Assembly: GCF_001742225.1 (NCBI RefSeq)
Contig: NZ_CP017076.1
Coordinates: 1,265,001-1,329,000, forward strand
Source: Novosphingobium resinovorum
GTDB taxonomy: Bacteria; Pseudomonadota; Alphaproteobacteria; Sphingomonadales; Sphingomonadaceae
DNA: 64,000 nt
Direction: 5' to 3'
Within the stretch, counting starts at the first letter, position 1. Each line of letters begins with the position of its first letter. Made by a program: the position numbers and the translations under genes. Below the pieces are notes generated by a model. The model made no database searches and was not told the origin of the DNA. It was given only the letters and a program-made list of their open reading frames with translations. Below, in pieces: positions 19,015 to 59,136 of this stretch.

Positions 19015-19041
19015 GATCAAAATCGTCGGACGATATTGACA
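19015..19041. promoter_or_regulatory. GntR-type operator 1 with flanking -35 elements
   Basis: The inverted repeat ATCGTCGGACGAT spans 19022-19034. One base to its right is TTGACA (19036-19041), facing the carboxylase operon. One base to its left, on the minus strand, is TTGATC (19020-19015), facing bioB. A repressor dimer here would block both promoters. GCAACAAAGA follows at 19070-19079, at the same distance from TTGACA as at operator 2. No good -10 hexamer is obvious. Confidence 0.75.
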
Positions 19042-19091
19042 GACCACGAAGCTGTAGTCCACAAGGTTCGCAACAAAGACAAGGGCAGGGG

Positions 19092-20642
19092 ATGATGACC
19101 GACTACGTTCGCTTGCTGGAGGCCAACAACGCTATCCAGACCATAGGTGATGATACCTATTGGCTCTGTGTGACGCGCACCGTGCAGGAATCGAAGCTGT
19201 TTCCCGTGCCGTCGTACATGCTGCTTTCGTACCTCTGCTGCTTCTACCGTTACCCGGAATTGCTGCGGAAGGTGGAGGCGGTGATGCCGGCCGAGGAAGT
19301 GGGCGACCGCTCGCGCCTGATCGGCGGCAAGCTGGGCAACCTGCCGGGCTGGGCGCTCCCCACCTTCTACCTGCTGGGCCGCGAGATCCTCATCAACTTC
19401 GGTATGCTCGCGCCCGAGGATGCGGCGGAGGACGTGGCCTATGTCATGGACTTCTGGCGCCGCTTCAAGCTGGCGCAGCAGCGCGAGGACGGGCACCTCA
19501 ACGCCCGCGAATTCGGCCAGCGCGTGCAGCACTTGCCCGAACGCCGGGTGCAGCGCTTCCACTCCGAACTGCTGCCTTGCAAGCCCGGCGACCGGCTCGG
19601 TCATGCGGCGCAGGCGTTCCTCGCCACGGTGTCGCAGTACGGCTTCCTCGTCTCGTGCGAGAGCCGCTGTGCGCTCAACAATTCCGGGCCCTATCGCCTT
19701 GCCGAAGACCGCGAGATGATCATCCGCGACTTCTCCGATCTGGCAGAGGGCGACTATCCCTGGCTCGACGGCGTGGCGGGCGACATCCCCTTCAGCAACC
19801 TGACGGTGACGATGGAGGCCACAGGCTGCCAGTTCTACCTGATGGACGACTGGGGCAGCTTCGAATCCCGCCCCGAATTCACCGCCGACAAGCTGACCGG
19901 CGTGGGCCTCTATACATCCGATGCGCTGTCGGGCGGCTACATCCCGGTCGGCATGGGTTCGGCCGAGGAACTGGCCGCCACTTTCGAGGATCTGACTGAC
20001 CGCATCCGCAAGGCCACCGTCGAACTGTGGAAGCGCACGGCCACCTGGTCGCGCGACGAGATGATGGATGCGGGCGCGCTCGTCTACTTCTCGCTCATCA
20101 AGGAGATCGCGCATATCGCGGGCGTTTACGACGTGAACGACTGGATGACGATCGACCCGCGCGCGGACCGGTTCCGCAGCCTGTTCAACGACGAGTTCGG
20201 CCGCGATTTCCTGGGCGAGATGGTGGGCCTCGTCTCGCTGCCGAGCCAGCAGCTCAATCGCTATGCGATGATGCAGCATAACAACAACCCGGTGCGCTAC
20301 ATCTCGCAGATCCCCTATTCGGTGCTGCAGCGAGAAGGTACGGGCGGCAAGCTGGCACCGATCGGGCCGGGCGTCTCGCACCTGCCGCCCAAGCAGGACC
20401 TTTACACCACCACCGCCGGACGCCTGCCGCTGGCCGAGTACAACGCCCGGGCAAGGGCGCTGCAACCCGCGCAGATGGCGCCCGAGTATCGTTTCATCTG
20501 CGACACCACGGCCAAATTCCACCCCGACGATGCACAGGTTCAGGCGCTCTACCGGCTTGAACAGGAAGGCTCGCCGCTGGCGGGCCGGGGCGTGGGCCTC
20601 AGCCGTGACGATGTCGAAGCCATTCGGAGTGCGCGCGCATGA
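19092..20642 (+). CDS. Unrecognised 516-aa protein of the carboxylase operon
   Basis: I do not recognise this protein. It is 516 aa, soluble-looking, without signal peptide or clear membrane segment, and rich in aromatic residues. N-terminal region: DDTYWLCVTRTVQESKLFPV; middle: SRCALNNSGPYRLAEDREMI; later: MMQHNNNPVRYISQIPY. A tandem start ATGATG follows AGGGCAGGGG; the frame extends upstream, but this start has the ribosome site. Its stop overlaps the biotin-carrier start, so it is probably a subunit or obligate partner of the carboxylase, for example a substrate-binding or activating enzyme. It could also be an independent enzyme acting just before or after carboxylation. Confidence 0.8.
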   Translation: MMTDYVRLLEANNAIQTIGDDTYWLCVTRTVQESKLFPVPSYMLLSYLCCFYRYPELLRKVEAVMPAEEVGDRSRLIGGKLGNLPGWALPTFYLLGREILINFGMLAPEDAAEDVAYVMDFWRRFKLAQQREDGHLNAREFGQRVQHLPERRVQRFHSELLPCKPGDRLGHAAQAFLATVSQYGFLVSCESRCALNNSGPYRLAEDREMIIRDFSDLAEGDYPWLDGVAGDIPFSNLTVTMEATGCQFYLMDDWGSFESRPEFTADKLTGVGLYTSDALSGGYIPVGMGSAEELAATFEDLTDRIRKATVELWKRTATWSRDEMMDAGALVYFSLIKEIAHIAGVYDVNDWMTIDPRADRFRSLFNDEFGRDFLGEMVGLVSLPSQQLNRYAMMQHNNNPVRYISQIPYSVLQREGTGGKLAPIGPGVSHLPPKQDLYTTTAGRLPLAEYNARARALQPAQMAPEYRFICDTTAKFHPDDAQVQALYRLEQEGSPLAGRGVGLSRDDVEAIRSARA

Positions 20643-21139
20643 GCGGCAAAGACCCTGACGAAACCTCGCTGCCCGAACTGGAACTGCTGATCGCCGAGTT
20701 CAAGCAGTCGGGCCTGCGCGAACTGCACGCCCGCTGCGGCGAACTGGAGGTCTATCTCTCGCAGGATGCGGATGCCTCCGGGCTTGATGCCCCGCGTGTC
20801 TCGGTCGCTGCGCCGGTTGCCAGCGCTGCACCTGCCTCCAAGGCCGCGCCTGCAGCTGCCGTGGCGGCACCGGCGGGAGCGCCTGCGGTGCCGGACGGCG
20901 CGGTCGTCGTGACGGCGCCTTACCTTGGCACCTTCTACCGCGCGCCCAAGCCCGGTGCGCCTAACTATGTCGAGGTGGGCGGGCGTGTTTCCGCCGAAAC
21001 CGAGGTCTGTCTGGTGGAGGTGATGAAGCTGTTCACCGCCGTGCGCGCAGGGGCCGCTGGCACCGTTCTGGAAGTGCTCGCCAGCGATGGCGATCTGGTT
21101 TCGGCCGGGCAGCCGCTTTTCGTGATCCGGCCGGAATAG
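20639..21139 (+). CDS. Biotin carboxyl carrier protein (AccB-like)
   Basis: 166-aa biotin carrier. N-terminal helical part (residues 11-45), an Ala/Pro-rich linker (about 51-86), then a biotinyl domain beginning TAPYLGTFYRAP. The acceptor is Lys130 in EVMKL, close to the canonical AMKM. Its start overlaps the stop of the 516-aa gene by four bases, and biotin carboxylase starts four bases after it. It should carry carboxybiotin between the next two gene products. A related protein lacking the lysine is encoded at 31053-31448. Confidence 0.92.
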   Translation: MSGKDPDETSLPELELLIAEFKQSGLRELHARCGELEVYLSQDADASGLDAPRVSVAAPVASAAPASKAAPAAAVAAPAGAPAVPDGAVVVTAPYLGTFYRAPKPGAPNYVEVGGRVSAETEVCLVEVMKLFTAVRAGAAGTVLEVLASDGDLVSAGQPLFVIRPE

Positions 21140-21143
21140 CGCC

Positions 21144-22511
21144 ATGGCCCTGTCCCGCCTCTTCATCGCCAACCGGGGGGAAATCGCCCTTCGCGTGCTT
21201 CGCGCCGCGCAAGGGCTGAACCTGGAAACCGTGATCGGCGTCTCCGATGCCGACCGTGACAGCGTGACCGCAAGGCTGGCCGACCGAGCGCTGGTGCTCG
21301 GCCCCGGACCTGCGGCGAAAAGCTATCTCGACGCGAAACTGGTGGTGCAGGCCGCCAAGGCCAGCGGGTGTGACGCGCTCCATCCCGGATACGGCTTCCT
21401 GTCCGAACGCGCCGAACTGGCACGGCTCTGCAAGGAGCACGGCATCACTTTCGTCGGCCCCGAAGCGGACATGATCGAAGCGCTGGGCGACAAATTGCGC
21501 GCGCGAGAGATGGCCGCTGCCGCAGGCGTACCGCTGGTGCCCGGCAGCGGCGAGATCGCCTCGGCAGCCGATGCCCGCCGGATCGCAGGCGACATCGGCT
21601 ATCCCGTGCTGCTGAAAGCGGCGGCGGGCGGCGGCGGGCGCGGCATGGTCATCGTCAACGGCCCGTCCGAAGTCGAAGCCGGATACCACCGCGCGAGCGC
21701 GGAGGCGCTGGCCGCTTTCAACGACGGCACCCTGTTCATGGAGCGTTTCGTGCCCGAGGCGCGCCACGTCGAAGTCCAGCTCATGGGCGACGGGCAGGGC
21801 GAAGTGATCCACTTCGGCGAGCGCGACTGCTCGGTCCAGCGCCGCTATCAGAAGGTGGTCGAGGAAGCGCCCTGTGTAGCGATGCCGGACGCTTTGCGCG
21901 CGCAGCTGCACGAGGCGGCGGTGAACCTTGCGAAAAGCGTCAACTACCGCAACGCGGGGACGTGCGAGTTCCTCTACGACGTGATGCGCGAGGAGATCTA
22001 CTTCATCGAGGTCAACGCCCGCATCCAGGTGGAGCACCCGGTCAGCGAGATGGTGACGGGTCGCGATCTGGTGCAGGAACAGTTGCGCGTTGCGGCGGGC
22101 AAGGGCCTTTCGGTGCGCCAGCAGGATGTCGTGCTCACCGGCCACGCCATCGAATGCCGCATCAATGCCGAGGACACCGCGCGCGATTTCGTGCCGGTGC
22201 CCGGCACCGTCACCCGCTGGCGCCCGCCCGAGGGCGAGGGCATCCGCCTCGACAGCCACATGCGTGAAGGCGCAAGCATCCCGCCATTCTACGACAGCAT
22301 GATCGGCAAGCTGATCGTCCACGCCGACACCCGCGACGCCGCGATCGACCGCATGATCGGCGCGCTCGACGCCTTCGAGGTCGAAGGCGTGCCCACGACC
22401 ATCCCGCTCCACCGCGAGATTCTTCGCGACGAGCACTTCCGGTCGAACACCATTCACACCCGCTGGCTGGAACAGGACCTGTTCACCGCGCAGCGCATGG
22501 CAGCGGAGTAA
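21144..22511 (+). CDS. Biotin carboxylase subunit (AccC-like)
   Basis: 455-aa ATP-grasp biotin carboxylase that carboxylates biotin using ATP and bicarbonate. Motifs are complete: FIANRGEIA at the N-terminus, HPGYGFLSE, Lys117, KAAAGGGGRGM (about residues 158-168), ARHVEVQ, FGERDCSVQRRYQK and EVNARIQVEHPVSE. Length matches AccC and the BC subunits of pyruvate and acyl-CoA carboxylases. It lies between the carrier and the carboxyltransferase. Housekeeping accC is usually paired only with accB, so this is a dedicated catabolic copy. Confidence 0.94.
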   Translation: MALSRLFIANRGEIALRVLRAAQGLNLETVIGVSDADRDSVTARLADRALVLGPGPAAKSYLDAKLVVQAAKASGCDALHPGYGFLSERAELARLCKEHGITFVGPEADMIEALGDKLRAREMAAAAGVPLVPGSGEIASAADARRIAGDIGYPVLLKAAAGGGGRGMVIVNGPSEVEAGYHRASAEALAAFNDGTLFMERFVPEARHVEVQLMGDGQGEVIHFGERDCSVQRRYQKVVEEAPCVAMPDALRAQLHEAAVNLAKSVNYRNAGTCEFLYDVMREEIYFIEVNARIQVEHPVSEMVTGRDLVQEQLRVAAGKGLSVRQQDVVLTGHAIECRINAEDTARDFVPVPGTVTRWRPPEGEGIRLDSHMREGASIPPFYDSMIGKLIVHADTRDAAIDRMIGALDAFEVEGVPTTIPLHREILRDEHFRSNTIHTRWLEQDLFTAQRMAAE

Positions 22512-22516: not shown

Positions 22517-23974
22517 ATGGCGCATATCCAGTTCCTCGACGAAACCCTGCGCGACGGCCAGCAGAGCCTGTGGGGCATGCGCATGCAGGCGGGCATGGCC
22601 CTGCCGGTGGCGCCGCTGATCGACAGGACCGGCTATCAGATCATCAGCCTGGCCGGTTCCTCGCTGTTCGAAGTGCTGATCCGGCATTGCCAGGAAGACC
22701 CCTGGGCGGGCCTCGACCTGCTGGTGAAGGCGATGCCGGACACGCCCCTGCGCGCCGGGTGCCGCTCCAACGGGTCGGTGACTTTCGGCTTCACGCCCGA
22801 TGCGCTGATGGACATTTGGGTGGATCGCCTCTGCGCCCACGGCATCCGCAGCTTCTGGCTCTACGATGTGTTGTTCAACATCGACAAGATGCACCGTCTC
22901 GCCCGCATCGCCAAGCGGCACCAGTGCCAGGTGGCGGGCACGATGTTGTTCACGCTCTCCCCGGTCCACGACGATGCCTATTACGCGGACAAGGCGGACA
23001 AGCTTTCGGCGCTGGACGAGGTGGACAGCCTGCTGCTCTACGACACCGGCGGCGTGCTCGATCGAGACCGGATTTCCACGCTGGTCCCTGCGATCAAGGC
23101 CAAGGCGCGCGGCAAGCCGATCGAGATGCATGCCAACAACATGCTCGGCCAGTCGGCCAAGTCCTATATCGACGCGATCGAGTTCGGGGTGACGACGATC
23201 CACACCGCCGTGCGCCCGATGGCCAACGGTCCCTCGATCCCCTCGGTCGAGATCATGGCCCGCAATGTCGAGATGCTGGGCCACACCCACAACCTCGACA
23301 CGTCGCTGTTCAAGCCGGTGGCCGATCACTTCGAGAAGGTCGGCAAAGCGGCCGGGTTCCTGGTGAACCAGCATTTCGAGTACGACGTCACTTCGCTCAA
23401 GCACCAGATCCCGGGCGGCATGATGGGCACCCTGCGCGCACAGCTGGTACAGCAGAACATGCTGGATCGCCTGCCCGACGTGCTGGAGGAAGTCGCGCGC
23501 GTGCGCCGCGAACTGGGCTATCCCGGCATGGCGACGCCGTTCGCGCAGCTGGTCGGCACGCTGGCGGTGCTCAACATCGTGACGGGCAAGCGCTACTCGG
23601 TGGTGCCGGACGAAGTGATCCAGTACGCAGCCGGTTTCTATGGCGAGCCCGTCGCGCCGATCGACGCCGATGTGCTGGACCGCATCCTGTCGAAACCGCG
23701 CGCCAAGGAAATCCTCGCCAGCCCGCCCGAACAGCCCGACCGCGAGGAACTGCATCGCCGCCACGGCACCGGCGGGGATGACGACGAACTGCTTCTGCGC
23801 GCGCTAGTGCCGTCCGCCGACATCGACCGCATGCGCCTTTCGGGAGCGCCGCGCCGGGACTATCCGACGCTGTCCTCGCCCGAACTGGATCAGGTGGCCC
23901 GGCTGATGAAGGTGGCGAACCTGCCGCTGGTGCAGCTGCGCTCCAGCCAGCTCGAACTCTCGATGCGGCAGTAG
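22517..23974 (+). CDS. Carboxyltransferase subunit, DRE-TIM (pyruvate carboxylase B/oxaloacetate decarboxylase-like)
   Basis: 485-aa TIM-barrel carboxyltransferase. It opens with FLDETLRDGQQS (residues about 6-17), the signature of the HMGL/DRE-TIM group to which pyruvate and transcarboxylase 5S-type carboxyltransferases belong. Later: YDTGGVL, EMHANNMLGQSAKSYIDAIE with metal-binding His, and IHTAVRPMANG. The C-terminal third resembles the conserved domain of pyruvate carboxylase B. The usual acceptors are 2-keto acids. Acyl-CoA carboxylases use a crotonase-type enzyme instead, so this is not a geranyl- or methylcrotonyl-CoA carboxylase of the known type. The acceptor here is unknown. Confidence 0.9.
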   Translation: MAHIQFLDETLRDGQQSLWGMRMQAGMALPVAPLIDRTGYQIISLAGSSLFEVLIRHCQEDPWAGLDLLVKAMPDTPLRAGCRSNGSVTFGFTPDALMDIWVDRLCAHGIRSFWLYDVLFNIDKMHRLARIAKRHQCQVAGTMLFTLSPVHDDAYYADKADKLSALDEVDSLLLYDTGGVLDRDRISTLVPAIKAKARGKPIEMHANNMLGQSAKSYIDAIEFGVTTIHTAVRPMANGPSIPSVEIMARNVEMLGHTHNLDTSLFKPVADHFEKVGKAAGFLVNQHFEYDVTSLKHQIPGGMMGTLRAQLVQQNMLDRLPDVLEEVARVRRELGYPGMATPFAQLVGTLAVLNIVTGKRYSVVPDEVIQYAAGFYGEPVAPIDADVLDRILSKPRAKEILASPPEQPDREELHRRHGTGGDDDELLLRALVPSADIDRMRLSGAPRRDYPTLSSPELDQVARLMKVANLPLVQLRSSQLELSMRQ

Positions 23975-24091: not shown

Positions 24092-25642
24092 ATGCGGATG
24101 ATCGACTTCTTCGACCGCGGCGCGCGCATGGGCGCCGACCAAGCCTGCATGATCGAGGGCGAGCGCGTCAGCACGTATGGCGAGGTCAAGGCGCGCAGCG
24201 ATGCCATCGCCCGCGCTCTGATCGCCGACGGCTTTCCGGCGGGCGGCCACGCGGCGGTGCTGAGCGGCAACAGCGTCCGCGCTTTCGAGGCGATCCTGGG
24301 CATCCTGCGCGCCGACGGCGTCTGGGTGATGGCCAACAACCGCGCCTCGCTGGACGAGAACGCCTATCTGCTCGACCTGCTCGATGTGGACACGCTTTTC
24401 GTCCATTCCGAAGTGGCGGACCGGGTCGCGCATTTCCGCGAGGCCTGCCCCAACATCCGCCGCTTCGTCGCGCTCAATCGCGCGTTTGCGGAGGCCGACC
24501 GCTTTCTTGGCGACATGCTGGTGGAGAGCGACGAACCCGTGCCCCAGCGCCGTTCGGGCGCGGCGGAGGAGCTGGGCTTCCTCGCCAATACCGGCGGCAC
24601 CACCGGACGCTCCAAGGGGGTGATGCTGTCGAACGGCAACTGGCAGGCGCTGGTGTCCAGCCTCGTCGCCTCGATGCCGATGAAGCGTCCGCCGGTGAAC
24701 CTCGTTGCCGCGCCGATGACGCATGCGGCGGGGCCGCTCGCGCTTGCCAGCATGGCGCTGGGCGGGACGGTGGTGGTGCTGCCGCGCTTCGATGCGGCCG
24801 AAGTGGTAGCGGCTATCGCGCGCCACCGCGTCACCTACATGTTCCTGCCCCCGACCGCGATCTACATGCTGCTGGCGGAGCCGTCCGCGCAGACCGCCGA
24901 TTTCTCCAGCCTCGAATATATCTCCTACGCCGGGGCGCCGATGTCGCTCGACCGGCTGAAGGAGGCCATCGCGCTTTTCGGCCCGGTGATGAACGCCAGC
25001 TTCGGCCAGACCGAGGCGCCGATGTGCGTTACCGCCATGCCGCCGCACGAACATCTCGACGATGCCGGCAACCTCGCGCATCCCGGCTCCTGCGGGCGCG
25101 CGAACCTGCTGTCCATCGTCGAGATCATGGATGACGACGGTCGCATCCTCGGCCCCGGAGAGCGTGGCGAGATCGTCGTGCGCGGGCCGCTGGTGATGCA
25201 GGGCTACTACAAGAACCCTCAGGCGACCGCCGAAGTCTCCGCCCATGGCTGGCACCATACCGGAGACATTGGTGTGCGTGACGAGCAGGGCTGGTTCTAC
25301 GTGGTGGACCGCAAGAAGGACATGATCATCTCGGGCGGCTTCAACGTCTACCCCGCCGAAGTGGAGCAGGCGCTGATGGCCGATCCGCAAGTGCAGGACT
25401 GCGCCGTGATCGGCGTCCCCGACGACAAGTGGGGCGAGGCCGTCGTCGCCATCGTCGAACCGCGCGGCGGCTGCACCATCGATCTTGAGAGGCTGCTGGC
25501 GGAAGCACGCGAGCGGCTCGGCCCGGTCAAGACGCCCAAGCGGGTGGAAGTGATGGCCGCGCTGCCGCGCTCCAACGCGGGCAAGGTGCTGCGCGCCGAA
25601 CTGCGCAAGCGCCACTGGCAGCCGGTGGGAAGGACGATCTGA
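24092..25642 (+). CDS. Acyl-CoA synthetase (AMP-forming, ANL family)
   Basis: 516-aa CoA ligase. Adenylation motifs in order: TGGTTGRSKGVM, NASFGQTEAP, TGDIGVRDEQGWF, DRKKDMIISGGFNVYPAE and the C-terminal catalytic Lys in RSNAGKVLR. Two candidate starts, ATG 24092 and ATG 24098, both lack a strong ribosome site; I list the first. The stop overlaps the thiolase start (TGATG). It is separated from the carboxylase genes by a terminator-like hairpin but lies in the same direction. It may activate the carboxylated product or a later acid for the neighbouring thiolase. Confidence 0.92.
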   Translation: MRMIDFFDRGARMGADQACMIEGERVSTYGEVKARSDAIARALIADGFPAGGHAAVLSGNSVRAFEAILGILRADGVWVMANNRASLDENAYLLDLLDVDTLFVHSEVADRVAHFREACPNIRRFVALNRAFAEADRFLGDMLVESDEPVPQRRSGAAEELGFLANTGGTTGRSKGVMLSNGNWQALVSSLVASMPMKRPPVNLVAAPMTHAAGPLALASMALGGTVVVLPRFDAAEVVAAIARHRVTYMFLPPTAIYMLLAEPSAQTADFSSLEYISYAGAPMSLDRLKEAIALFGPVMNASFGQTEAPMCVTAMPPHEHLDDAGNLAHPGSCGRANLLSIVEIMDDDGRILGPGERGEIVVRGPLVMQGYYKNPQATAEVSAHGWHHTGDIGVRDEQGWFYVVDRKKDMIISGGFNVYPAEVEQALMADPQVQDCAVIGVPDDKWGEAVVAIVEPRGGCTIDLERLLAEARERLGPVKTPKRVEVMAALPRSNAGKVLRAELRKRHWQPVGRTI

Positions 25643-26865
25643 TGCGCGATGTGGTGATCCTCGGCGTCGGCATGACGCCCTTTGGCCGTCATCTGGACAA
25701 GAGCCACGAACAGCTCACGCAAGCCGCGGTGCGTCTGGCGCTGGAGGATGCCGGGCTGGACGGCGCGGCGATCGACATGGCGGTCTATGCCAACGTCATT
25801 CAGGGCTTCTTCGCGGGCGAAATGTCCATCCCCGGCGAGTATGCGCTGCGCCCGCTCGGCATTTCCGGCGTGCGCGGGTTCCATGTCGAACAGGCCTGCG
25901 CCAGTTCCACGGTTGGCCTGCACCTCGCGGTAGACTACGTGAAGGCGGGCCTTGCCGAAGTGGCGCTCGTCGTCGGTGTGGAGAAGCTCTACAGCGACGA
26001 TCGCGCCAAGCGCTTCGCCGTGTTCCAGCAGCCGCGCGACATGGTGGAGGCGGCCGCCTATATCGAGCGCATTCGCGATCTCCTCGCCCCCGTCCCGGCG
26101 GACAAGGTCGCGGCCAGTCCCAACGTGCTGATGGAAGCCTATGCCGCGCAGGCGCGCCTTCACATGGGCACTTACGGATCGACGCAGGCTCAGATCGCGG
26201 CGGTGGCGGCGAAGGATCACTGGCATTCGCAGTTCAACCCGCTGGCGCAGTACCGCGAGGCGATGAGCGTCGAGGAAATCCTCGCCGCGCCGCAAGTCGC
26301 CTGGCCGCTGACCAACCCGATGTGCGCGCCCATCAGCGACGGCGCGGCGGCGGCGATCGTCTGCTCGGCGGATTTCGCCAAGCGCTTCTCGGGCAGGCCG
26401 ATCTGCGTGCTGGCGGCGGAAAACCGCACCGGCAGCGACCGCGCGCCGGACGACTATGCGAACCACGTCACCCGCAAGGTCGCGGCGCTGGCTTACGAGC
26501 GCGCCGGGATCGGCCCGCAGGACGTCGATCTCGCCGAAGTCCACGACGCCAGTTCGATCGGCGAGATGATCCAGACCGAAGCGCTCGGCCTGTGTGCACC
26601 GGGCGAGGCCGGGCGCGCCGCCGAGCGCGGGGAGACGGCATTGGGCGGCCGCGTTCCGGTGAACGTCTCGGGCGGGCTGGTGTCGAAGGGGCATCCGCTG
26701 GCGGCGACGGGGCTGGGGCAGATCCACGAACTCGTCACGCAACTGCGCGGGCAGGCTGGCAAGCGACAGGTCGAAGGCGCGCGCGTGGCCGTGGCGGAGA
26801 ACTCGGGAGGGTTCTACGGTGTCGAGGATGGCATGTCGGCTGTGACGATCCTCGCGCGGGATTGA
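25642..26865 (+). CDS. SCP-x/lipid-transfer-type thiolase
   Basis: 407-aa non-decarboxylating thiolase-fold enzyme of the sterol-carrier-protein-x group. Nucleophile Cys in EQACASSTVG (about residue 88), catalytic His region GGLVSKGHPLAATGLGQ, and EVHDASS in place of the more common EVHDCFS. Such thiolases cleave bulky branched or steroid-side-chain 3-ketoacyl-CoAs, and related Ltp enzymes perform retro-aldol cleavage. The C-terminal segment ENSGGFYG lacks the usual second Cys motif of type I thiolases, as is normal in this group. Translationally coupled to the synthetase. Confidence 0.88.
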   Translation: MRDVVILGVGMTPFGRHLDKSHEQLTQAAVRLALEDAGLDGAAIDMAVYANVIQGFFAGEMSIPGEYALRPLGISGVRGFHVEQACASSTVGLHLAVDYVKAGLAEVALVVGVEKLYSDDRAKRFAVFQQPRDMVEAAAYIERIRDLLAPVPADKVAASPNVLMEAYAAQARLHMGTYGSTQAQIAAVAAKDHWHSQFNPLAQYREAMSVEEILAAPQVAWPLTNPMCAPISDGAAAAIVCSADFAKRFSGRPICVLAAENRTGSDRAPDDYANHVTRKVAALAYERAGIGPQDVDLAEVHDASSIGEMIQTEALGLCAPGEAGRAAERGETALGGRVPVNVSGGLVSKGHPLAATGLGQIHELVTQLRGQAGKRQVEGARVAVAENSGGFYGVEDGMSAVTILARD

Positions 26866-27060: not shown

Positions 27061-27831
27061 TCACCCAAACAGCGCCTCCAGCCCCGCCTTGGCCGCATGC
27101 GCCGTCATGTCGAGCTGCATCGGCGTGATCGAAATCTCCCGGTCCAGCATCGCCTGCAGGTCGTTGCCCGGCGCATGGCCGCCCGCCGGAAGGGCGATCT
27201 TCACCCAGTAATACGGGAAGTGCCGCGCATCGACCCGCCGCTCCGGGATGAACGCGCCCGGCGGCCGCTGCCCTTGCGTGGTCACGCGCATGCCGGTCAC
27301 TTCGTCGGCCGGGCATTCCGGGAAGTTGACGTTCACGAACAGCCCCGGCTTCCAGTCGAAGCGCAGCAGCTTCTCGATCACGTCCCCGGCGAAACGCTCG
27401 GCATTGTCCCAGGGCACCGCGTTCGGCGGGCGGAAGCACTGGCTGAGCGCGATCGCCGGAATGCCCAGCAAGGCCCCCTCCATCGCTGCCGCTGCCGTGC
27501 CGGAATAGGTAATGTCCTCGGCCAGATTCGGGCCGCGATTGATGCCCGAGATCAGGATGTCTGGCCGCTTGCCCTCGATCAGTTCGTAGATCGCCAGAAG
27601 CGCGCAGTCGGTCGGCGTGCCCTTCACCGCGAAGTGTCGCTCGTCGCGCTGCTTCACGCGAATCGGCAGCGTGGTCGAGAACGAGTGCCCCGCGCCCGAA
27701 CGCTCGTCGTCCGGCGCCACGACCCATACGTCGTCGGTGAACCGGCGCACGATCTTTTCCAGCAGCACAAGGCCGGGCGCGTCGATGCCGTCGTCGTTGA
27801 CGAGCAATACGCGCGGTGGGGTTCCAGTCAT
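27061..27831 (-). CDS. surE: 5'/3'-nucleotidase SurE
   Basis: 256-aa SurE-family metal-dependent phosphatase. N-terminal VLLVNDDGIDAPG carries the metal-binding Asp pair (D13, D14), ERSGAGHS the conserved Ser, and SGINRGPNL the Asn. SurE removes phosphate from nucleoside monophosphates and other phosphoesters. ATG 27831 is preceded by GGGAGGAT. Housekeeping surE normally sits with pcm/nlpD or serS. This copy stands alone and faces a dikinase-like operon across a GntR-type operator, which suggests a dedicated phosphatase working with that system. The dedicated role is inference. Confidence 0.92.
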   Translation of the reverse strand: MTGTPPRVLLVNDDGIDAPGLVLLEKIVRRFTDDVWVVAPDDERSGAGHSFSTTLPIRVKQRDERHFAVKGTPTDCALLAIYELIEGKRPDILISGINRGPNLAEDITYSGTAAAAMEGALLGIPAIALSQCFRPPNAVPWDNAERFAGDVIEKLLRFDWKPGLFVNVNFPECPADEVTGMRVTTQGQRPPGAFIPERRVDARHFPYYWVKIALPAGGHAPGNDLQAMLDREISITPMQLDMTAHAAKAGLEALFG

Positions 27832-27882: not shown

Positions 27883-27922
27883 GGTCAAGATCGTCCGACG
27901 ATTTCATCCAATCATGTTGACA
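27883..27922. promoter_or_regulatory. GntR-type operator 2 with flanking -35 elements
   Basis: The repeat ATCGTCCGACGAT spans 27890-27902. On the minus strand one base further is TTGACC (27888-27883), facing surE. On the plus strand TTGACA lies at 27917-27922, 14 bases from the repeat, facing the dikinase-like operon. GCAACAAAGA at 27951-27960 is exactly 34 bases from the start of TTGACA, as at operator 1. Confidence 0.75.
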
Positions 27923-28725: not shown

Positions 28726-29339
28726 TGGCGACGACCATGACCGAGCGCGATCTGGTGCTCCATGCGACGGCGATCAAGCGCCATGCGCCGCTGCCCGCCA
28801 TCGCGCACCTTGCGGGGCTTCCCGAAGCGACGGCACAGGCGGTGATCGCCCAGGCCGTCGCCACCGGCCGCGTGATCGAGGCGCGCGGCGCCTATGCGCT
28901 GACGCCGCTTGCCGGCGTGGCGCTCACCGCCCGCTATGCGCGCCACTTCGCGGATGTGCGCGAGGACGCGGCGTTCGTGAGCGCCTACGAGGGTTTCGAG
29001 CGGATCAACCGCACGCTCAAGCAGATCATCACCGACTGGCAGACGCTCGACATCGGCGGTGCCAAAGTGGCCAACGACCACAGCGACAAGGCCCACGACG
29101 ACGCGGTGATAGACCGCCTCGGCGCCCTGCACGAACAGGCCGAGCCGATCCTCGCCAAGCTGGCGGGCCGCCTGCCGCGCCTGCAATACTACGCCGACAA
29201 GCTGCTCGCCGCGCTGGAAGCGGCCGAGGACGGCGACCCCGAATGGGTCAGTGATATCCGGCGCGACAGCTACCATACCGTCTGGTTCGAACTGCACGAG
29301 GAACTGCTGCGGACCATGGGTCGCGAGCGGGAGGAATGA
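28725..29339 (+). CDS. Unrecognised helical protein with winged-helix-like N-terminus
   Basis: 204-aa protein, mostly alpha-helical by composition. The first 60 residues look like a small winged-helix module (HAPLPAIAHLAGLPEATAQA, then GRVIEARGAYALTPLAG). The rest is charged helix with a cluster of His/Asp (ANDHSDKAHDDAVID). I do not recognise the family. ATG 28725 has GGGGAGG before it; a GTG three bases earlier is possible. It lies between two swivel-domain genes with overlapping starts and stops, so it is most likely a structural or regulatory subunit of the phosphotransferase and not a transcription factor. Confidence 0.75.
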   Translation: MATTMTERDLVLHATAIKRHAPLPAIAHLAGLPEATAQAVIAQAVATGRVIEARGAYALTPLAGVALTARYARHFADVREDAAFVSAYEGFERINRTLKQIITDWQTLDIGGAKVANDHSDKAHDDAVIDRLGALHEQAEPILAKLAGRLPRLQYYADKLLAALEAAEDGDPEWVSDIRRDSYHTVWFELHEELLRTMGREREE

Positions 29340-52244: not shown

Positions 52245-52265
52245 TCATACCTGCTGCCGGAGTGC

Positions 52266-52958: not shown

Positions 52959-53942
52959 TCAGCCCGCAACCATCGCCCGTTTCTCCAGCAGCGCCACGTA
53001 GGACGGGATCAGCGCCGCGAAGGCCTTGAAGCGCGGGTCGGCGATGCGGCCCGTCTCGAACAGGAACGCGCCGACCGAGATGATCGCCGCCACCTTGGCC
53101 TGACCCAGCACCGCATAACGATCGACGTCGACGGCGGTGCGGCCGGTGCCTTTCTCCCATTCCTCGACCATGCGCCCGGCGGACCACCAGCCGGGCAGCT
53201 CGAACCCGGCGTTGGCCAGCGACGCCTCGCCCTGATCGTGGAACATCAGCACGTAGCCAAGGTCCAGCAGCGGTTCTGAGACTTGCGCCATCTCCCAGTC
53301 GAGCAGCCCGGTGATGCGCCCCCGGTGCCACATGCAGTTGCCGTGCTTGGGGTCGCCGTGGACCGGCGTGGGCGTGCCGGAGGTGCGCGGCGGGCGGGCC
53401 ACCAGATCCTCCAGCACCGCGACCAGACCGGGCGTGGAATCGGCCCCGCGCGCCACGTCCAGCCAGTGCTGCGCTTCCTCCGGCACGGTGCGGCCACCCG
53501 GCGGCATCGCCGATACCGGCATCCGGTGCAGCGCCAGGATCGCGTCGAACCACTGGCGGCAGACGCTTTCGGCGCCCTCGACCGGGTCGGCGGTGAGCCA
53601 GTCGGGCACGGCATATTCGAACGCCTCGCCCTCGATGCGGCCCATCAGGAAGAACGGGTCGCCCAGCACCTGCGGATCGTCGCACAGTTCCAGCACCGGG
53701 GGCAGGGGCACCCCCGGCGCGGCCTTGGACACGGTGCTCAGCACCGCGTGCTGGCGCACCATGTCGTAAGGCGGCAACAGGCCCTCCTCGGACGGGGGCA
53801 TGCGCAGGATCTCGTCGATTCCCTCGACCAGATAAGTCTCGTTGGAATGGCCGGCGGAAAGGGTCTTCACCCCCGTCACCCGGTTTCCGCGCGGCAGCCA
53901 GGCGCGAAGCCCGGCTGCCAGCTTGTCGGTATCGCGCGCCAT
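52959..53942 (-). CDS. APH-fold kinase of the EthD operon
   Basis: 327-aa aminoglycoside-phosphotransferase-fold kinase. Nucleotide loop SAGHSNETYLVEG, catalytic loop HGDPKHGNCMW (H195, D197, N202) and metal-binding Asp215 in LLDWEMA. It belongs to the broad group of small-molecule kinases that also contains the kinase half of ACAD10/11, but no acyl-CoA dehydrogenase is adjacent. It is the last gene of an operon with the DHSWG-motif and EthD genes, controlled by a GntR-type operator. It may phosphorylate an alcohol group of the pathway substrate. Confidence 0.85.
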   Translation of the reverse strand: MARDTDKLAAGLRAWLPRGNRVTGVKTLSAGHSNETYLVEGIDEILRMPPSEEGLLPPYDMVRQHAVLSTVSKAAPGVPLPPVLELCDDPQVLGDPFFLMGRIEGEAFEYAVPDWLTADPVEGAESVCRQWFDAILALHRMPVSAMPPGGRTVPEEAQHWLDVARGADSTPGLVAVLEDLVARPPRTSGTPTPVHGDPKHGNCMWHRGRITGLLDWEMAQVSEPLLDLGYVLMFHDQGEASLANAGFELPGWWSAGRMVEEWEKGTGRTAVDVDRYAVLGQAKVAAIISVGAFLFETGRIADPRFKAFAALIPSYVALLEKRAMVAG

Positions 53943-53948: not shown

Positions 53949-55157
53949 TCAGACCAGCGAGTTTTCGGCGGTCAGCCCAAGCTCGGGATGCGCGCCGTGG
54001 ATGATGGTTTCCATGATTCCGTAGCCGGTCCAGTCGCCCTCGGTCACCTTGATCGGGCAGTCGCGCAACTGGCGGATGCGCTCCAGCGTCTTGCGGTCGA
54101 GCGTGTCGTCGAACTTCTCGCCCTCGACCGTCAGCGGGCCGTGCCACGAACCGTGCTTGCGCCCGTCGAAGCCGAGGTAGAGGCCCGGGCCGAGGTGGAC
54201 GCCCGAGGTGCCCACCACTTCCACCTCGATGGTGTGCGATCCGCCCTGCAGCATGTCGAAGTGGAGGCGGCCGCCGAGCAGGCGCCGGGTGCGGTCGTCG
54301 AAGCGCAGTTCGGGGCGCACGCGGGCGATCTTCTCCTGCGTGCCGTCCGGGTTGTTGCGGTAGCCCGAGGAGTAGAAGATCCGCCCCTGCTTCGACTGGA
54401 AGTACATGTGATAGGCGACTTTCTCGCCGCTGGGCGAGACGAGCATGAACGGGCTCCAGATCAGCACGAACTCGCCCTGGCCGAACTTCACGTCGCCGAA
54501 GTCGGAGGTGGGGCGCACGTCGGCATTGTGCGCGCCCACGTCGAGGCGGGTGCCCCAGGAGTGGTCGCGGTACTGGGTCCATTCCTCGGGGTTGATCTCG
54601 ATGCGCTCGCCCTCGACCTCGATCCAGCCGGAGGGGGTGCCGATCTGGTGGTAGCGGATCACATCGGAGCCGATGCGGAAACCGTCCTTCTCGCGTTGCT
54701 TGTGGCGGTCCTCGAAGAACGGGGGCATTTCCGAGGTGAAGGTGATGTCGTAGGCGATCGGCTGCTGGTCGTTGGCGGCGCAGGCAAAGCGGACCTGGCG
54801 CAGCGGTTCGATGACCTCGTAGCTCAGCGGCCCGGCTTCGGTGACGAGCGGGTCGTCGCGCAATTCGCGGTTGGCGCGCACGGTCCACTGCTCGCTCCCG
54901 CGCGAGATCGCGGCCCAGCCGTCAAGCACGCCGCGGTTATGGTAGCGGCCGAGCCCGAAATCGACGCCCATGGTGCCGTCCTTGCGCACGATCGCGGTCC
55001 AGATCTTCTCGGTCCAGCTCTGTTCGGAGGTGCTGACGGAGGCGAACGTATCGACGATCTGGTGGTTGAGATGCTCGTCGAGCGCCGTGATCATGCCGAT
55101 GTCTTCCATCGCGTTGCGCACGTAGCGCACCGGCGTGTTCAGCAGTGTCGAATTCAT
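53949..55157 (-). CDS. DHSWG-motif lipocalin-like protein (AttH/CrtC-like hydratase fold candidate)
   Basis: 402-aa protein, cytosolic by sequence, with mainly beta character. It contains the motif RDHSWGTR near residue 200, found in the AttH/carotenoid-1,2-hydratase-like (CrtC) calycin superfamily and related DUFs. It also has YHMYFQSKQGRIFYSSGYR and a C-terminal YGIMETIIHGAHPE. CrtC adds water to an isoprenoid double bond to make a tertiary alcohol. Whether this protein is an enzyme is not known, and the assignment is by motif only. It starts one base after the EthD stop. The frame is open further upstream inside the EthD gene. Confidence 0.7.
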   Translation of the reverse strand: MNSTLLNTPVRYVRNAMEDIGMITALDEHLNHQIVDTFASVSTSEQSWTEKIWTAIVRKDGTMGVDFGLGRYHNRGVLDGWAAISRGSEQWTVRANRELRDDPLVTEAGPLSYEVIEPLRQVRFACAANDQQPIAYDITFTSEMPPFFEDRHKQREKDGFRIGSDVIRYHQIGTPSGWIEVEGERIEINPEEWTQYRDHSWGTRLDVGAHNADVRPTSDFGDVKFGQGEFVLIWSPFMLVSPSGEKVAYHMYFQSKQGRIFYSSGYRNNPDGTQEKIARVRPELRFDDRTRRLLGGRLHFDMLQGGSHTIEVEVVGTSGVHLGPGLYLGFDGRKHGSWHGPLTVEGEKFDDTLDRKTLERIRQLRDCPIKVTEGDWTGYGIMETIIHGAHPELGLTAENSLV

Positions 55158-55158: not shown

Positions 55159-55491
55159 TCAGGCTCCCTCTTTGATGTCTTCTTCCGCCAGCGTGCCGAC
55201 CTGCAGGACGGGGGTGACGGTGGTGTAGTTGGGAAGGTCGGCGAACAGCGCCGCGCCGCATTGCGCCATGGCCTCGTCGAAGGCCGCGCGCGTGGCGAAC
55301 AGCATTTCCGAGACGGCCCAGTAAGCCGGAGACGTACCGTCGAGCGCGGCTCCGCCCAGCACCGTGCGCACGCTGTCCAGCCCGAACGGCGCCAGCAGAC
55401 GGTGCGCGAAAGGCGCGTGGCAGTGCCGGTAATAGTCACCGTCGAAACGGCTGCCAGCGTCGTTCGGATAGACCGCGAGAATGCGAATCAT
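55159..55491 (-). CDS. EthD-domain protein
   Basis: 110-aa ferredoxin-like (dimeric alpha/beta barrel) protein of the EthD family. The signature is in the first 30 residues: AVYPNDAGSRFDGDYYRHCH, then APFAHRLL. EthD was named from the Rhodococcus ETBE-degradation locus beside a P450. Family members accompany many catabolic clusters with an unclear accessory or isomerase role. First gene of a three-gene operon, 35 bases after a GntR-type operator. AAAGG lies before the ATG. Confidence 0.85.
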   Translation of the reverse strand: MIRILAVYPNDAGSRFDGDYYRHCHAPFAHRLLAPFGLDSVRTVLGGAALDGTSPAYWAVSEMLFATRAAFDEAMAQCGAALFADLPNYTTVTPVLQVGTLAEEDIKEGA

Positions 55492-55525: not shown

Positions 55526-55545
55526 TGTTTAAATCGTCCGACGAT
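55526..55545. promoter_or_regulatory. GntR-type operator 3 (EthD operon)
   Basis: The perfect repeat ATCGTCCGACGAT at 55533-55545, extended by AA/TT to AAATCGTCCGACGATTT (55531-55547). On the minus strand, one base from the core, is TAAACA (55531-55526) followed by G. This aligns with TTGACAG beside operators 1 and 4, in the direction of the EthD operon. Confidence 0.75.
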
Positions 55546-55691: not shown

Positions 55692-55716
55692 TACGGGGTT
55701 TCGGTGTGTTAGCTGC

Positions 55717-56442
55717 TCAGGACGCGAAGCTGGCGAAGGCCGCTGCGGGCAGTTCCTCGATCGTGCTGCGCGTGCCGGCGAAGTGGCGCTGGACGGCGCG
55801 GTCGGCGGCGCCGACGGCGTTCTCCGCGACGGCCTTGGCGATTTTGCTGTAGCCCGAGGCATGGCGCACGCGCTGCTTTTCCGACTGGATCGATTCGATC
55901 TGGGCGCGGAACAGGTCGGTGCGGGTGAGCGGCATCGCGCGCTCAAGCTCTCCGTTGCCGCCGATCGCGACGAGCACCGAATAGAACTGGCGGCGCTGCT
56001 CCAGATAAAGCGCGCGGTTGTGGTTTCGGTTGGCCTCGTCGATGGCGTTGGCGGCCTCGACGATCTGGCGGCGCTTCTCGTCGGTGTCGCAATGCTCGGC
56101 CGCGAGTCGCGCGGCGAGGCAGGCGAGCGGCTCCAGCGTCTGCAGCAGATCGAGCACCGCCTTGCGGTCCAGCGTGGCGATGTAGGCGCCGCGATAGCGG
56201 TTGAGCGTGACGATGCCGTCCGCCGCAAGATGCTTGAGCGCTTCGCGCAGCGAGCCCCGGCTGATCCCCAGCCGCTGCGTCAGGTCAGGTTCGACGAGGT
56301 GCTGGCCAGGCACGAACACGCCCGCGCGGATGCCCCGGATTATGGCTTCGGAGACTTTGTCGGCCGCGCTTCCGGCGTCGACCTTGATGGCCTCCGCATC
56401 GAGGGTGGTTTCGTCTGCCATGTCCTTCAACCGCGTAGCCAT
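55717..56442 (-). CDS. GntR-family regulator, FadR/FCD subfamily
   Basis: 241-aa regulator. The N-terminal winged helix spans about residues 27-90 (VSEAIIRGIRAGVFVPGQHL, LTQRLGISRGSLREALKHLA). The C-terminal FCD ligand-binding domain is helical (LLQTLEPLACLAARLAAEH onward). FCD regulators usually sense carboxylic acids or related metabolites. ATG 56442 has AGGAC before it; a GTG at 56454 is an alternative. It is divergent from a receptor gene, with operator 4 between them. It is the only GntR gene in the window and therefore the best candidate for binding all five ATCGT-N3-ACGAT sites. Confidence 0.92.
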   Translation of the reverse strand: MATRLKDMADETTLDAEAIKVDAGSAADKVSEAIIRGIRAGVFVPGQHLVEPDLTQRLGISRGSLREALKHLAADGIVTLNRYRGAYIATLDRKAVLDLLQTLEPLACLAARLAAEHCDTDEKRRQIVEAANAIDEANRNHNRALYLEQRRQFYSVLVAIGGNGELERAMPLTRTDLFRAQIESIQSEKQRVRHASGYSKIAKAVAENAVGAADRAVQRHFAGTRSTIEELPAAAFASFAS

Positions 56443-56553: not shown

Positions 56554-56573
56554 ATCGTCGAACGATATTGACA
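56554..56573. promoter_or_regulatory. GntR-type operator 4 (gntR/receptor)
   Basis: ATCGTCGAACGAT at 56554-56566, followed after one base by TTGACA (56568-56573), facing the receptor gene. The run ACGATATTGACAG is identical to that at operator 1. It sits 111 bases before the gntR start on the other side, which allows autoregulation. Confidence 0.75.
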
Positions 56574-56666: not shown

Positions 56667-59057
56667 ATGGCGACAGGCAATCCAATTACAGTTGGGCGAA
56701 TCGCAGTTGGGCGGATGTTGCTGGGGGCAGTATCGCTCACGGTCCTGGCCAGCGCGGATGCGGCATGGGCGCAGGATGCGGCCAGCACTGCAAGCACCCC
56801 GAATGCCCCGAGCGCATCGGCGAACGAGATCATCGTGACCGCGAACAAGCGCGAGCAGTCGATCAACGACGTCGGGCTTTCCATCACCGCGCAGTCGGGC
56901 GAGGCGCTGATGGAGCGCGGGATCAGCTCGCCCACCGACCTCGGCAAAATCGTGCCGGGCCTGACGGTCCAGCCCTCGCCGTTCAACACCCCGGTCTATA
57001 CCCTGCGCGGCATCGGATTCTACGAGACGACGCTGTCCGCTTCGCCGACCGTCGCGGTCTATACCGACGAAGTGGCGTTGCCGTTCAGCGCCACCACGCG
57101 CGGCGCCGCGTTCGACATCCAGCGCGTCGAGGTGCTGAAAGGTCCGCAGGGCACGCTGTTCGGCCAGAACACCACCGGCGGTGCGATCAACTACGTGGTC
57201 AACAAGCCGACCGAAGTGTTCGATGCCGGTCTTGATCTCAGCTACGGCCGCTTCAACGAGATCGACACCACCGCCTTCATCAGCGGCCCGATCACCGACG
57301 GCGTCAAGGCGCGCCTCGCGGTGCGCGGCGTTCATAGCGACGACTGGCAGTACAGCTACACCCGCGACGACAGTCTCGGCCGCAAGCGCCAGCTGCAGGG
57401 CCGCTTCCAGTTGGCGATCGAGCCGACCAGCAACTTCCGCCTGCTGCTCAATGCCAATGGCTGGATCGACAAGGGCGATACCCAGGCCGCGCAGCTGGTC
57501 GAGGATACTTGCGCGGAATCCACCGCAGGCACCTGCGGCAGCCCGCAGGCCGCGGCATTCCGCGACTATCCGCGCGCGCCGGACAAGGCCCGCGCGGCCG
57601 ACTGGGGCTACGGCATCTTCGGCCGCCGTCCCAAGCGCGACGACCGCTTCTGGCAACTCAGCGCCCGCGCCGACCTCGACCTGAACGAGAACCTGACGCT
57701 GACTTCGGTGACCGCCTATTCCGATTACAAGACGGATTCGGTGCAGGACTTCGACGGCGCCACGATGTTCTCGGTGGACACCAACACCACCGGCTTCATC
57801 AAGGACTTCGCGCAGGAACTGCGCCTGTCCGGCAAGTATGGTGCGCTCAACGTCATCGTCGGCGGCAATTACAACCGTTCGCGCACGTTCGATCGCCTGT
57901 TCTACAACTTCAGCGAAGGCCCATCGGCCAACCCGCTCTACATGATCCCCGGCGCGCCGCATGGTGAGCTGACGTTCAACTACTCACGCCAGAACGTGAA
58001 GTCCTACGCCGCCTTCGGTAACGTGGAGTTCGAACTGTCCCCGCAGCTCACCCTGATCGGCGGCGCGCGCTACACCAACACCAAGCGCAGCTTCGAGGGC
58101 TGCACCAACGACTTCGGTGGCGGCACGGCGACATGGTGGAACGCGATCTTCGGCACCAATGTCCAGCCCGGCGGCTGCCTGACCTTCACGCCGACGTTCC
58201 CGGTGATCTTCGATCCGGCCGACTTCGACCAGCTCAACGAAGACAACATCTCGTGGAACGCGGGCGTCAACTACAAGACCGACAGCGACATGCTGCTCTA
58301 TGCCCGTGTCAGCCGGGGCTACAAGTCGGGCAGCTTCCCGACCGCCTCGGTCGCCAGCTACAGCGGTTATACCCCGGTCAAGCAGGAGTCCGTCACCGCC
58401 TATGAAGCGGGCGTGAAGGCCCCGTTCGGCAACGGTTTGGCCGAAATTTCCGCCGCTGCGTTCTACTATGACTACAAGGACAAGCAGCTGCGCGGCCGCA
58501 AGCCCGATCCGGTGTTCGGCACCCTCGACGGGCTGGTGCAGATCCCCAAGAGCCGCGTCTACGGCTTCGAGACGCAGATCGACGTGCGCCCCACCGACGG
58601 CCTGCGCATCTCCGCCGGCATGACCTACATCGACACCAAGATCACCGAGTTCACCGGCTACGACGCGCTGGGCGAACTGCACGATTTTGCGGGTCAGAAG
58701 TTCCCTTATGCCCCGGCGATCACCGCGATCGGCGATGCGCAGTACGACTGGGCGGTGGGCAGCGCCAACGCCTATATCGGAGCTTCGGTCACTTACAACA
58801 GCCAGACCAGCAGCGCGCTGGCGAACAGCAACACGCAGTACGTCGATCGCGACAGCCGCTTCCAGATCAAGGAATACGCGCTGCTCGACCTGCGGGCGGG
58901 TGTGAAGCTGCACGACGACAAGATCCGCATCGGTGCCTGGGTGCGCAACGTGACCAACACGTTCTACTGGACCAACATCCAGGACAACCTCGCCTCGATC
59001 TCGCGCTTCACCGGCATGCCGCGCACTTACGGCATCCAGCTCGGCTGGCGCTACTGA
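56667..59057 (+). CDS. TonB-dependent outer-membrane receptor of the GntR cluster
   Basis: 796-aa receptor. Signal peptide ends near AAWAQ, then the plug NEIIVTANKREQSINDVGLS, YTLRGIGFYE and VEVLKGPQGTLFGQNTTGGA, and a barrel ending in YGIQLGWRY with terminal aromatic residue. The start ATG 56667 has AAGGAGGGAGG before it; the frame is open 99 bases further upstream. It is related in plan to the receptor at 2781, both with IIVTAxKR/QR plugs of catabolic type. It is controlled by operator 4 and likely imports the substrate of the GntR-controlled pathway. A terminator follows. Confidence 0.93.
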   Translation: MATGNPITVGRIAVGRMLLGAVSLTVLASADAAWAQDAASTASTPNAPSASANEIIVTANKREQSINDVGLSITAQSGEALMERGISSPTDLGKIVPGLTVQPSPFNTPVYTLRGIGFYETTLSASPTVAVYTDEVALPFSATTRGAAFDIQRVEVLKGPQGTLFGQNTTGGAINYVVNKPTEVFDAGLDLSYGRFNEIDTTAFISGPITDGVKARLAVRGVHSDDWQYSYTRDDSLGRKRQLQGRFQLAIEPTSNFRLLLNANGWIDKGDTQAAQLVEDTCAESTAGTCGSPQAAAFRDYPRAPDKARAADWGYGIFGRRPKRDDRFWQLSARADLDLNENLTLTSVTAYSDYKTDSVQDFDGATMFSVDTNTTGFIKDFAQELRLSGKYGALNVIVGGNYNRSRTFDRLFYNFSEGPSANPLYMIPGAPHGELTFNYSRQNVKSYAAFGNVEFELSPQLTLIGGARYTNTKRSFEGCTNDFGGGTATWWNAIFGTNVQPGGCLTFTPTFPVIFDPADFDQLNEDNISWNAGVNYKTDSDMLLYARVSRGYKSGSFPTASVASYSGYTPVKQESVTAYEAGVKAPFGNGLAEISAAAFYYDYKDKQLRGRKPDPVFGTLDGLVQIPKSRVYGFETQIDVRPTDGLRISAGMTYIDTKITEFTGYDALGELHDFAGQKFPYAPAITAIGDAQYDWAVGSANAYIGASVTYNSQTSSALANSNTQYVDRDSRFQIKEYALLDLRAGVKLHDDKIRIGAWVRNVTNTFYWTNIQDNLASISRFTGMPRTYGIQLGWRY

Positions 59058-59068
59058 CCTCTCCGTTG

Positions 59069-59105
59069 CCCCGCGGCCCTTGCTTCAGGGCCGCGGGGTC
59101 TTTTT
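59069..59105 (+). terminator. Terminator after the receptor gene
   Basis: A 12-bp stem, CCCCGCGGCCCT (59069-59080) and AGGGCCGCGGGG (59087-59098), with a 6-base loop, followed by TCTTTTT. It separates the receptor from the dehydratase-like operon, which has its own operator. Confidence 0.9.
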
Positions 59106-59116
59106 GGATAGGCAAG

Positions 59117-59136
59117 ATCGTATTACGATAACGACA
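59117..59136. promoter_or_regulatory. GntR-type operator 5 (dehydratase-like operon)
   Basis: ATCGTATTACGAT at 59117-59129, with perfect 6-base arms. One base on is ACGACAG (59131-59137), which aligns with TTGACAG beside operators 1 and 4. It lies between the receptor terminator and the dehydratase-like gene. The centre differs from the other copies, which shows that the ATCGT/ACGAT arms are the conserved part. Confidence 0.7.

Follow-up and report, generated by a model that had tools for sequence, protein, structure and literature searches.

Why should one short palindrome, ATCGT-N3-ACGAT, stand five times in front of operons dispersed along a single 64,000-nucleotide stretch of the Novosphingobium resinovorum genome (contig NZ_CP017076.1, positions 1,265,001 to 1,329,000; hereafter, the window)? 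An initial annotation, made from the letters of the window, proposed that the five copies are operators of a GntR repressor encoded at 55717-56442 and that the operons behind them form one pathway. We conclude that they probably mark a real regulon controlled by this neighbouring protein, a reading to which comparative sequence analysis leads us to give a probability of about 0.85. The case for one regulator and one pathway is built on footprinting in related genomes, the co-occurrence of regulator and pathway genes, a site before the regulator's own gene, agreement with the consensus of the FadR subfamily, and the merged gene order of Sphingobium estronivorans.

Five operators in the window

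A pattern scan recovered all five copies where the initial annotation had placed them (Table 1), with 5 exact, 0 one-mismatch and 13 two-mismatch sites in total. From dinucleotide frequencies, 0.059 exact sites would be expected in the window (Poisson P for at least five, 5e-9), and the rate in the rest of the genome gives a P value of 2e-9; since the motif was picked post hoc these values are uncorrected, and the independent test is footprinting in other genomes. As had been claimed, every site is intergenic and lies ahead of an operon, with 0/5 within genes, according to heuristic gene calls that leave 8% of the window non-coding.

The whole genome (6.9 Mb) holds 10 exact sites, the window's five among them, versus a single match for a reversed control pattern, and of the 195 genus genomes compared, this one has the most copies. 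Three of the five sites outside the window (L006, L007 and L009) lie inside coding-like open reading frames and were rejected as regulon members, being taken as chance occurrences; two do not, and one of these, L010, has no recognisable genes nearby. An exact site at L189:10366, on replicon C3, is embedded in a longer palindrome, without recognisable genes around it. A genome scan allowing one mismatch, which had been proposed earlier as a regulon finder, returned 103 sites versus 33 for the control, mostly noise, and was discarded for this purpose.

The -35-like hexamers stand at the positions first reported, and a full TTGACA that had been overlooked lies on the dikinase side at 27917, 14 bases beyond the operator at 27890. 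The bases flanking the operator are biased (CRAW...WTYG across 57 sites, both strands pooled), and this also holds where no TTGAC hexamer is present, as on the gntR side, so the hexamer found one base away may in part be operator rather than promoter.

Footprinting in related genomes

The footprinting sample comprised 19 other loci around close GntR relatives (618,095 bases), in which gene order is reshuffled; the genome studied here is referred to as G000. In these loci 27/30 exact sites fall 20-200 bp upstream of one of eight lead genes, namely bioB, the gene for a 516-aa protein, surE, the dikinase operon, an EthD-like gene, gntR, a TonB-dependent receptor gene and a gene resembling linalool dehydratase/isomerase (Ldi). 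None falls within a matched gene, and the three exceptions lie 171 bp before an orthologue of an acyl-CoA dehydrogenase (ACAD) in G537 and, twice, before a 40% match to a short-chain dehydrogenase/reductase (SDR) in G591. With up to one mismatch, 52 of 66 sites occur at the same distance upstream of lead genes, 3 in genes and 11 elsewhere, and as a control all 59 alternative permutations of the half-site together yielded one upstream match. Counting G000, a site precedes bioB in 4/4 of the loci holding this gene, the Ldi-like gene in 12/13, and the 516-aa gene, surE and the dikinase operon in 12/15 each. In the fragmented genome G036, 4/5 exact sites precede regulon genes, spread over three contigs. 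Its fifth exact site (L237:6130-6142) spans the probable start codon of bioB (ATG at 6135).

Exact copies average 4.4 per genome where the GntR is at least 54% identical (nine genus genomes) and 1.9 in the other 186 (one-sided Mann-Whitney P 5e-4, from hand-compiled counts that include this genome). Ten GntR-carrying genomes together place 28/47 of their exact sites in regulon clusters or fragments of them; the remaining 19, about two per genome, equal the background of the genus. Six of these 19 were examined (one in G030, two each in G537 and G143, one in G033): none has a recognisable pathway gene behind it, all overlap open frames of 120 codons or more, and the sole window homologue in their vicinity is a 26% cytochrome P450 match about 2.4 kb from one site.

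A sixth promoter is probably bound by the window GntR on another replicon, as judged from an exact site at C3:473186, which precedes a TonB receptor gene by about 157 bp and lies divergent to a TauD-type gene. The receptor shares 63% identity with the one encoded in the cluster of G030, and the surrounding 20 kb gave no GntR relative. No exact or one-mismatch site was found within 1.5 kb upstream of its homologues in G029, G112, G124 and G165, which lack the GntR, nor upstream of another paralogue (57%) that this genome carries or of the additional copy in G033.

In G030, neither exact nor one-mismatch sites occur at the genes for the carboxylase, SurE and the dikinase, which have another GntR gene close by. 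Such second paralogues, 47-56% identical to the window protein, stand beside surE at L043:11545-12231, L048:18787-19419 and L050:15219-15839, and some of the genomes carrying one have degenerate (G030) or doubled sites (G393, 516-aa gene). One regulon split between two GntR paralogues is possible.

The proposed GntR regulator and its co-occurrence with the pathway

The protein encoded at 55717-56442, whose gene may start at 56442, 56454 or 56421, combines a GntR winged helix with an FCD domain, both above cut-off, which places it in the FadR subfamily. Its FCD domain reads RRxFY where we would expect the metal-binding D..FH motif, and may thus be a metal-free effector domain. Close relatives share the recognition helix SRGSLRE and the wing R[YF]RGA[YF]. 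The helix SRGSLRE goes with TCGT half-sites, SRGPVRE or SRGPLRE with TTGT at L054, L056 and L063, and most loci of the Pro type showed no site. In the comparative literature, Ser at position 40 of the helix-turn-helix is associated with G/C and Pro avoids it (PMC4494728). All five sites conform to the operator consensus described for the subfamily, TNGTNNNACNA (PMC2230225), in agreement with their initial assignment to the FadR/FCD type.

Relatives of this GntR occur in 12/195 genus genomes (E<=1e-30) and in 14/397 genomes of the family (E<=1e-40). Exactly the same 9/195 genus genomes hold a GntR at least 54% identical and the 516-aa protein (E<=1e-60), and in the family sample the same 10/397 hold a GntR of at least 54% and a 516-aa protein of at least 65%, the pair being split at contig ends in G369. 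Four genomes with a more distant GntR (40-45%) carry 516-aa proteins of 54-57%, and three others have a 516-aa protein (51-60%) and no GntR at E<=1e-40. In genomes with the close GntR a site precedes the 516-aa gene in 13/17 cases with at most one mismatch, and in 16/17 with at most two (G369, cut by a contig end, lies outside the 17; its site in the footprinting has one mismatch), versus 0/8 loci with distant forms. This contrast is weaker than it appears, because some distant clusters have other genes ahead of the 516-aa gene in its run. At L248, L255, L260 and L262 the 516-aa gene was reported with a single in-frame TGA.

A motif search around the distant loci L209 and L055 found no TNGTNNNACNA site, just the palindrome TCTGTAGGACAGA, with a GT-N3-AC core, at L209:6765, directly behind the 44% gntR of Sphingobium estronivorans; it is possibly the operator of the distant GntR form. 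A search of plasmid records found nothing close, in a set from which records near this genome may be absent. In the part consulted of a study of N. aromaticivorans by DNA affinity purification sequencing, one GntR protein (Saro_0164) appears, without a motif.

Mode of control and alternative explanations

Promoter occlusion, with release by an acid of the pathway, is the usual mode of such regulators. On the reading we prefer, the dimeric GntR/FCD protein would bind ATCGTNNNACGAT at five promoters of the window, touching or near the -35 element, and would keep RNA polymerase out until it is released by an intermediate of the pathway, which is probably a carboxylate or a coenzyme A (CoA) ester; it would control its own gene too. 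With G000 included, the hexamer TTGA[CT] lies at an offset of 1 from the operator in 4/4 bioB, 9/9 receptor, 11/12 surE and 7/14 516-aa sites. We regard repression as the likely mode. Of the initial claim that this GntR represses the operons, the regulon and its regulator are supported by the footprinting, co-occurrence, autoregulatory site and consensus fit, and binding and repression are what we infer.

A variant of this scheme, in which the same GntR activates some or all of the promoters, draws on a site centre at about -44 (our own count), near the position of class II activators, on the fixed one-base spacing at the bioB, receptor and surE sites and half of the 516-aa sites, on -10 elements that look weak by eye, and on the description of GntR1/2 of Corynebacterium glutamicum, from the same subfamily, as an activator at ptsG (PMC2230225). 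Yet a near-consensus TTGACA needs no activator, the spacing at the dikinase promoter varies from 14 to 16 between orthologues, which is unusual for an activator face, and one site serves both sides of divergent pairs; activation seems to us unlikely. Still less probable is that the motif belongs to a regulator whose gene lies elsewhere, with some other role left for the neighbouring GntR, as the further GntR proteins of the genome and the presence of GntR without clear sites in G096 and G509 might suggest: gntR itself is preceded by a site in 13/19 loci (G000 included), the motif fits the FadR subfamily of this GntR (PMC2230225), and no site was found before the 516-aa gene where only a distant form of GntR, or none, was found. 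As for the repeats being chance or a general genomic palindrome, one-mismatch palindromes are fairly common in the genome, as the scan above indicates, and at least one exact copy occurs in 159/195 genus genomes (median 2 without a close GntR); the sites are nonetheless clustered in the window and conserved in position across the 19 loci, and the permuted half-sites together with the footprinting rule this origin out for practical purposes.

Several observations weigh against the reading we prefer, a regulon repressed by the neighbouring GntR. The sites before the EthD-like gene (5/10 loci), the receptor gene (7/12; the distance to the site is 277-342 bp in G537, G591 and L049) and gntR are less widely conserved than the others, G000 again being counted, and the in-cluster receptor of G006 has just a two-mismatch site. 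G096 and G509 have a GntR of 54-55%, but no exact site was found in them, nor any matched gene with a one-mismatch site close to it. In 10/12 dikinase sites a distance of 14-16 bases separates TTGACA from the operator, more than simple occlusion of the -35 element would allow. G000 encodes 13 further GntR matches (E<=1e-3), all of which stay candidates, and co-occurrence alone cannot tell which regulator binds, because regulator and pathway always occur together. Finally, some of the genomes compared are near relatives (e.g. G253 and G393), so the counts are not independent events.

Genes under the operators and the proposed pathway

The genes behind the five operators are listed in Table 1. 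The 516-aa protein has 868 homologues among 8000 candidates scored. The protein at 31053-31448 is probably not biotinylated, since it lacks the MK motif. In the operon first described as EthD, the operator position was correct; the EthD identity is a label given by eye. The Ldi-like protein scores 249 bits with PF18566, and its Cys359 and Cys368, invariant in 12 sequences, align with the cysteines of 5hlr, a pair that we take to be catalytic.

Table 1. Operators and associated genes, with positions in the window
Feature	Position	Strand	Context or evidence
Operator 1	19022..19034		between bioB (-) and 516-aa/carboxylase operon (+); TTGACA 19036 (+), TTGATC 19020 (-)
Operator 2	27890..27902		between surE (-) and dikinase operon (+); TTGACC 27888 (-), TTGACA 27917 (+)
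Operator 3	55533..55545		before EthD-like/Rv3169-like/APH operon (-)
Operator 4	56554..56566		between gntR (-) and TonB-dependent receptor (+); TTGACA 56568
Operator 5	59117..59129		before Ldi-like operon (+)
bioB, biotin synthase	17909..18967	-	Radical_SAM + BATS
516-aa protein, core of module	19092..20642	+	no Pfam, NCBIfam or PDB match
Biotin carboxyl carrier protein	20639..21139	+	VEVMKLF
Biotin carboxylase	21144..22511	+	
Carboxyltransferase	22517..23974	+	PYC_OADA
Acyl-CoA ligase	24098..25642	+	
Thiolase	25642..26865	+	Thiolase_C_1 domain
SurE-type phosphatase	27061..27831	-	PF01975 2e-59; LLVNDDG present
249-aa protein, swivelling His domain of phosphoenolpyruvate (PEP) utilisers	27976..28725	+	PF00391 6e-9; RSHLG His
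204-aa protein	28725..29339	+	no known family; searches gave no match
Pyruvate phosphate dikinase (PPDK)-like protein without C-terminal barrel	29342..31048	+	PF01326, PF00391; NF004531 674 bits; TSHAA His
Biotin_lipoyl-like protein	31053..31448	+	VLGRKTEV in place of MK biotinylation motif
APH-family kinase	52959..53942	-	PF01636 4e-31
Rv3169-family protein	53949..55157	-	NF053593 348 bits
110-aa EthD-like protein (label by eye)	55159..55491	-	no Pfam match at 1e-3
GntR/FCD transcription factor, proposed regulator	55717..56442	-	PF00392 4e-13, PF07729 1e-12
TonB-dependent receptor	56667..59057	+	
Ldi-like protein with N-terminal hydrophobic part	59196..61106	+	PF18566 1e-73
130-aa protein	61113..61505	+	no Pfam match
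SDR oxidoreductase	61502..62257	+	

The gene order of S. estronivorans (L209) joins most genes of two window operons, and bioB, in one run. There a 44% GntR is followed by a run on one strand that opens with a 24% alcohol dehydrogenase match and continues with a PEP-utiliser protein, the 516-aa protein, a ligase (37% to the product of the 24098 gene), the 204-aa protein, a PPDK-like protein and a carrier, and ends with biotin carboxylase, carboxyltransferase, thiolase and bioB (70%); the best match of its thiolase is the window gene at 14777, not that at 25642. Because most of two operons are merged in this way behind a GntR, the window operons under the operator probably serve one pathway, a part of the initial proposal that the co-occurrence of GntR and pathway genes also favours.

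By analogy with known enzymes, the substrate would be taken up by TonB receptors and pass a dehydratase/isomerase step of the tertiary-alcohol type (Ldi-like); the ketone would then be phosphorylated by a split dikinase, carboxylated by the biotin-dependent enzyme, dephosphorylated by SurE, ligated to CoA and thiolysed, with biotin supplied by the pathway's own bioB. We would give this order of reactions even odds. More tentatively still, the whole could be an undescribed aerobic pathway for a tertiary alcohol or ketone that is hydrophobic and probably of plant origin, with TonB uptake, Ldi-like dehydration and carboxylation through a phosphorylated intermediate; this intermediate would come from a new split dikinase (the PPDK-like chain, a second swivelling His protein and a 204-aa helper) acting together with the 516-aa protein, whose family is not a known one, and bioB would be co-regulated for the cofactor.

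Neighbouring genes without operators

The left part of the window (2781-17699, with cytochrome P450, aldehyde dehydrogenase, SDR, ACAD, APH, enoyl-CoA hydratase (ECH) and thiolase genes) was rejected as a regulon member, no site with up to one mismatch being found there. G537 nonetheless carries its exact site, mentioned above, before the orthologue of the left-part ACAD. The run at 10980-17699 encodes an SDR, an ACAD, an APH kinase, an ECH, a thiolase, an NMO-type protein and another ECH, and parts of it adjoin regulon genes in L042 and L050; its pair of kinase and ACAD is reminiscent of the catabolism of 4-hydroxy acids (lva/ACAD11-type). Also without an operator, the segment 41984-47592 (a fusion of AP_endonuc_2 and 4-hydroxyphenylpyruvate dioxygenase-like domains, a major facilitator superfamily transporter, a LysR regulator and a type I dehydroquinase) looks like a quinate/shikimate catabolic cluster. 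A siderophore-type TonB receptor and a PKHD hydroxylase at 49902-52949, with a two-component system ahead and no operator, probably serve unrelated iron uptake.

Comparison with known systems

Among the papers listed in the literature search (open-licence, judged by title and abstract opening) none was found to describe this regulon or pathway; the regulator is of a known kind, and the pathway is one for which that search gave no description. What is gained is a comparative definition of a catabolic regulon that was not found there, the joining of two unannotated protein families (516 aa and 204 aa) to a pathway of the ketone-carboxylation type, and, in the operator and its GntR, a simple handle with which the inducer, and through it the substrate, could be found.

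FadR-subfamily (FCD) regulons, such as that of C. glutamicum GntR1/2, have likewise a GntR+FCD protein and a TNGTNNNACNA palindrome (PMC2230225), and in the comparative set of Suvorova et al. 2015 (PMC4494728), as for GntR1/2, single sites in divergons serve both operons. Here, in contrast, the core is TCGT/ACGA instead of TKGT/ACMA (PMC2230225, PMC4494728), and the targets are a ketone-carboxylation type pathway, TonB receptors and an Ldi-like enzyme. PheR of Sphingobium sp. SHPJ-2 is also a sphingomonad repressor coupling uptake by a TonB receptor to catabolism, but it belongs to the IclR family, with another motif and phenanthrene as substrate (PMC13273656). The Ldi-like protein shares PF18566 and the aligned paired cysteines, CEP...C, with linalool dehydratase/isomerase (PDB 5hlr/5g1u), although the relationship is very remote (profile E 2.6e-4) and the hydrophobic N-terminal part is peculiar to the protein found here.

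The closest parallels to the pathway are Hpe of Rhodococcus rhodochrous GD02, which also has a dikinase, a three-subunit biotin carboxylase, a phosphatase, a CoA ligase and a beta-keto cleavage step, and Acv of the sphingomonad Sphingobium lignivorans SYK-6, with a kinase, a three-component carboxylase and a phosphatase (PMC9618137, PMC12167813, PMC13101465). Acv is a six-gene operon and was compared by its published description. Compared with Hpe, a PPDK-like dikinase with the 249- and 204-aa proteins replaces HpeH/HpeI (PMC9618137), SurE stands in place of the NagD-like HpeD and a thiolase in place of HpeF, and the 516-aa protein, bioB and the Ldi-like enzyme are extra. That the regulated genes serve the catabolism of hydroxyphenyl ketones (acetovanillone-type) as Hpe/Acv do is suggested by the parallel order of activities and by the carboxylase subunits, which match an 18-kb, unannotated locus of A. 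macra, presumed from its contig and from homology to be the hpe operon, at 35% (carboxyltransferase), 47% (biotin carboxylase) and 47% (carrier protein, 45% covered). At the same presumed locus, however, the PPDK-like protein is matched over no more than 21% of its length (presumably the swivel domain), at 36% identity, the 516-, 204- and 249-aa proteins and SurE find no match (E<=1e-6) in its 18 kb, and the Ldi-like enzyme is left unexplained, all of which makes this function doubtful. The pathway therefore resembles Hpe/Acv, from which it has the three-subunit biotin carboxylase and neither an HpeHI-type dikinase nor a NagD-like HpeD, but on sequence grounds it falls outside that family, because its dikinase differs and two of its core proteins match no known family. 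In Hpe the carboxylase accepts only phosphorylated ketones (PMC9618137), and by analogy we infer that the same logic, phosphorylation followed by carboxylation, holds here with other parts.

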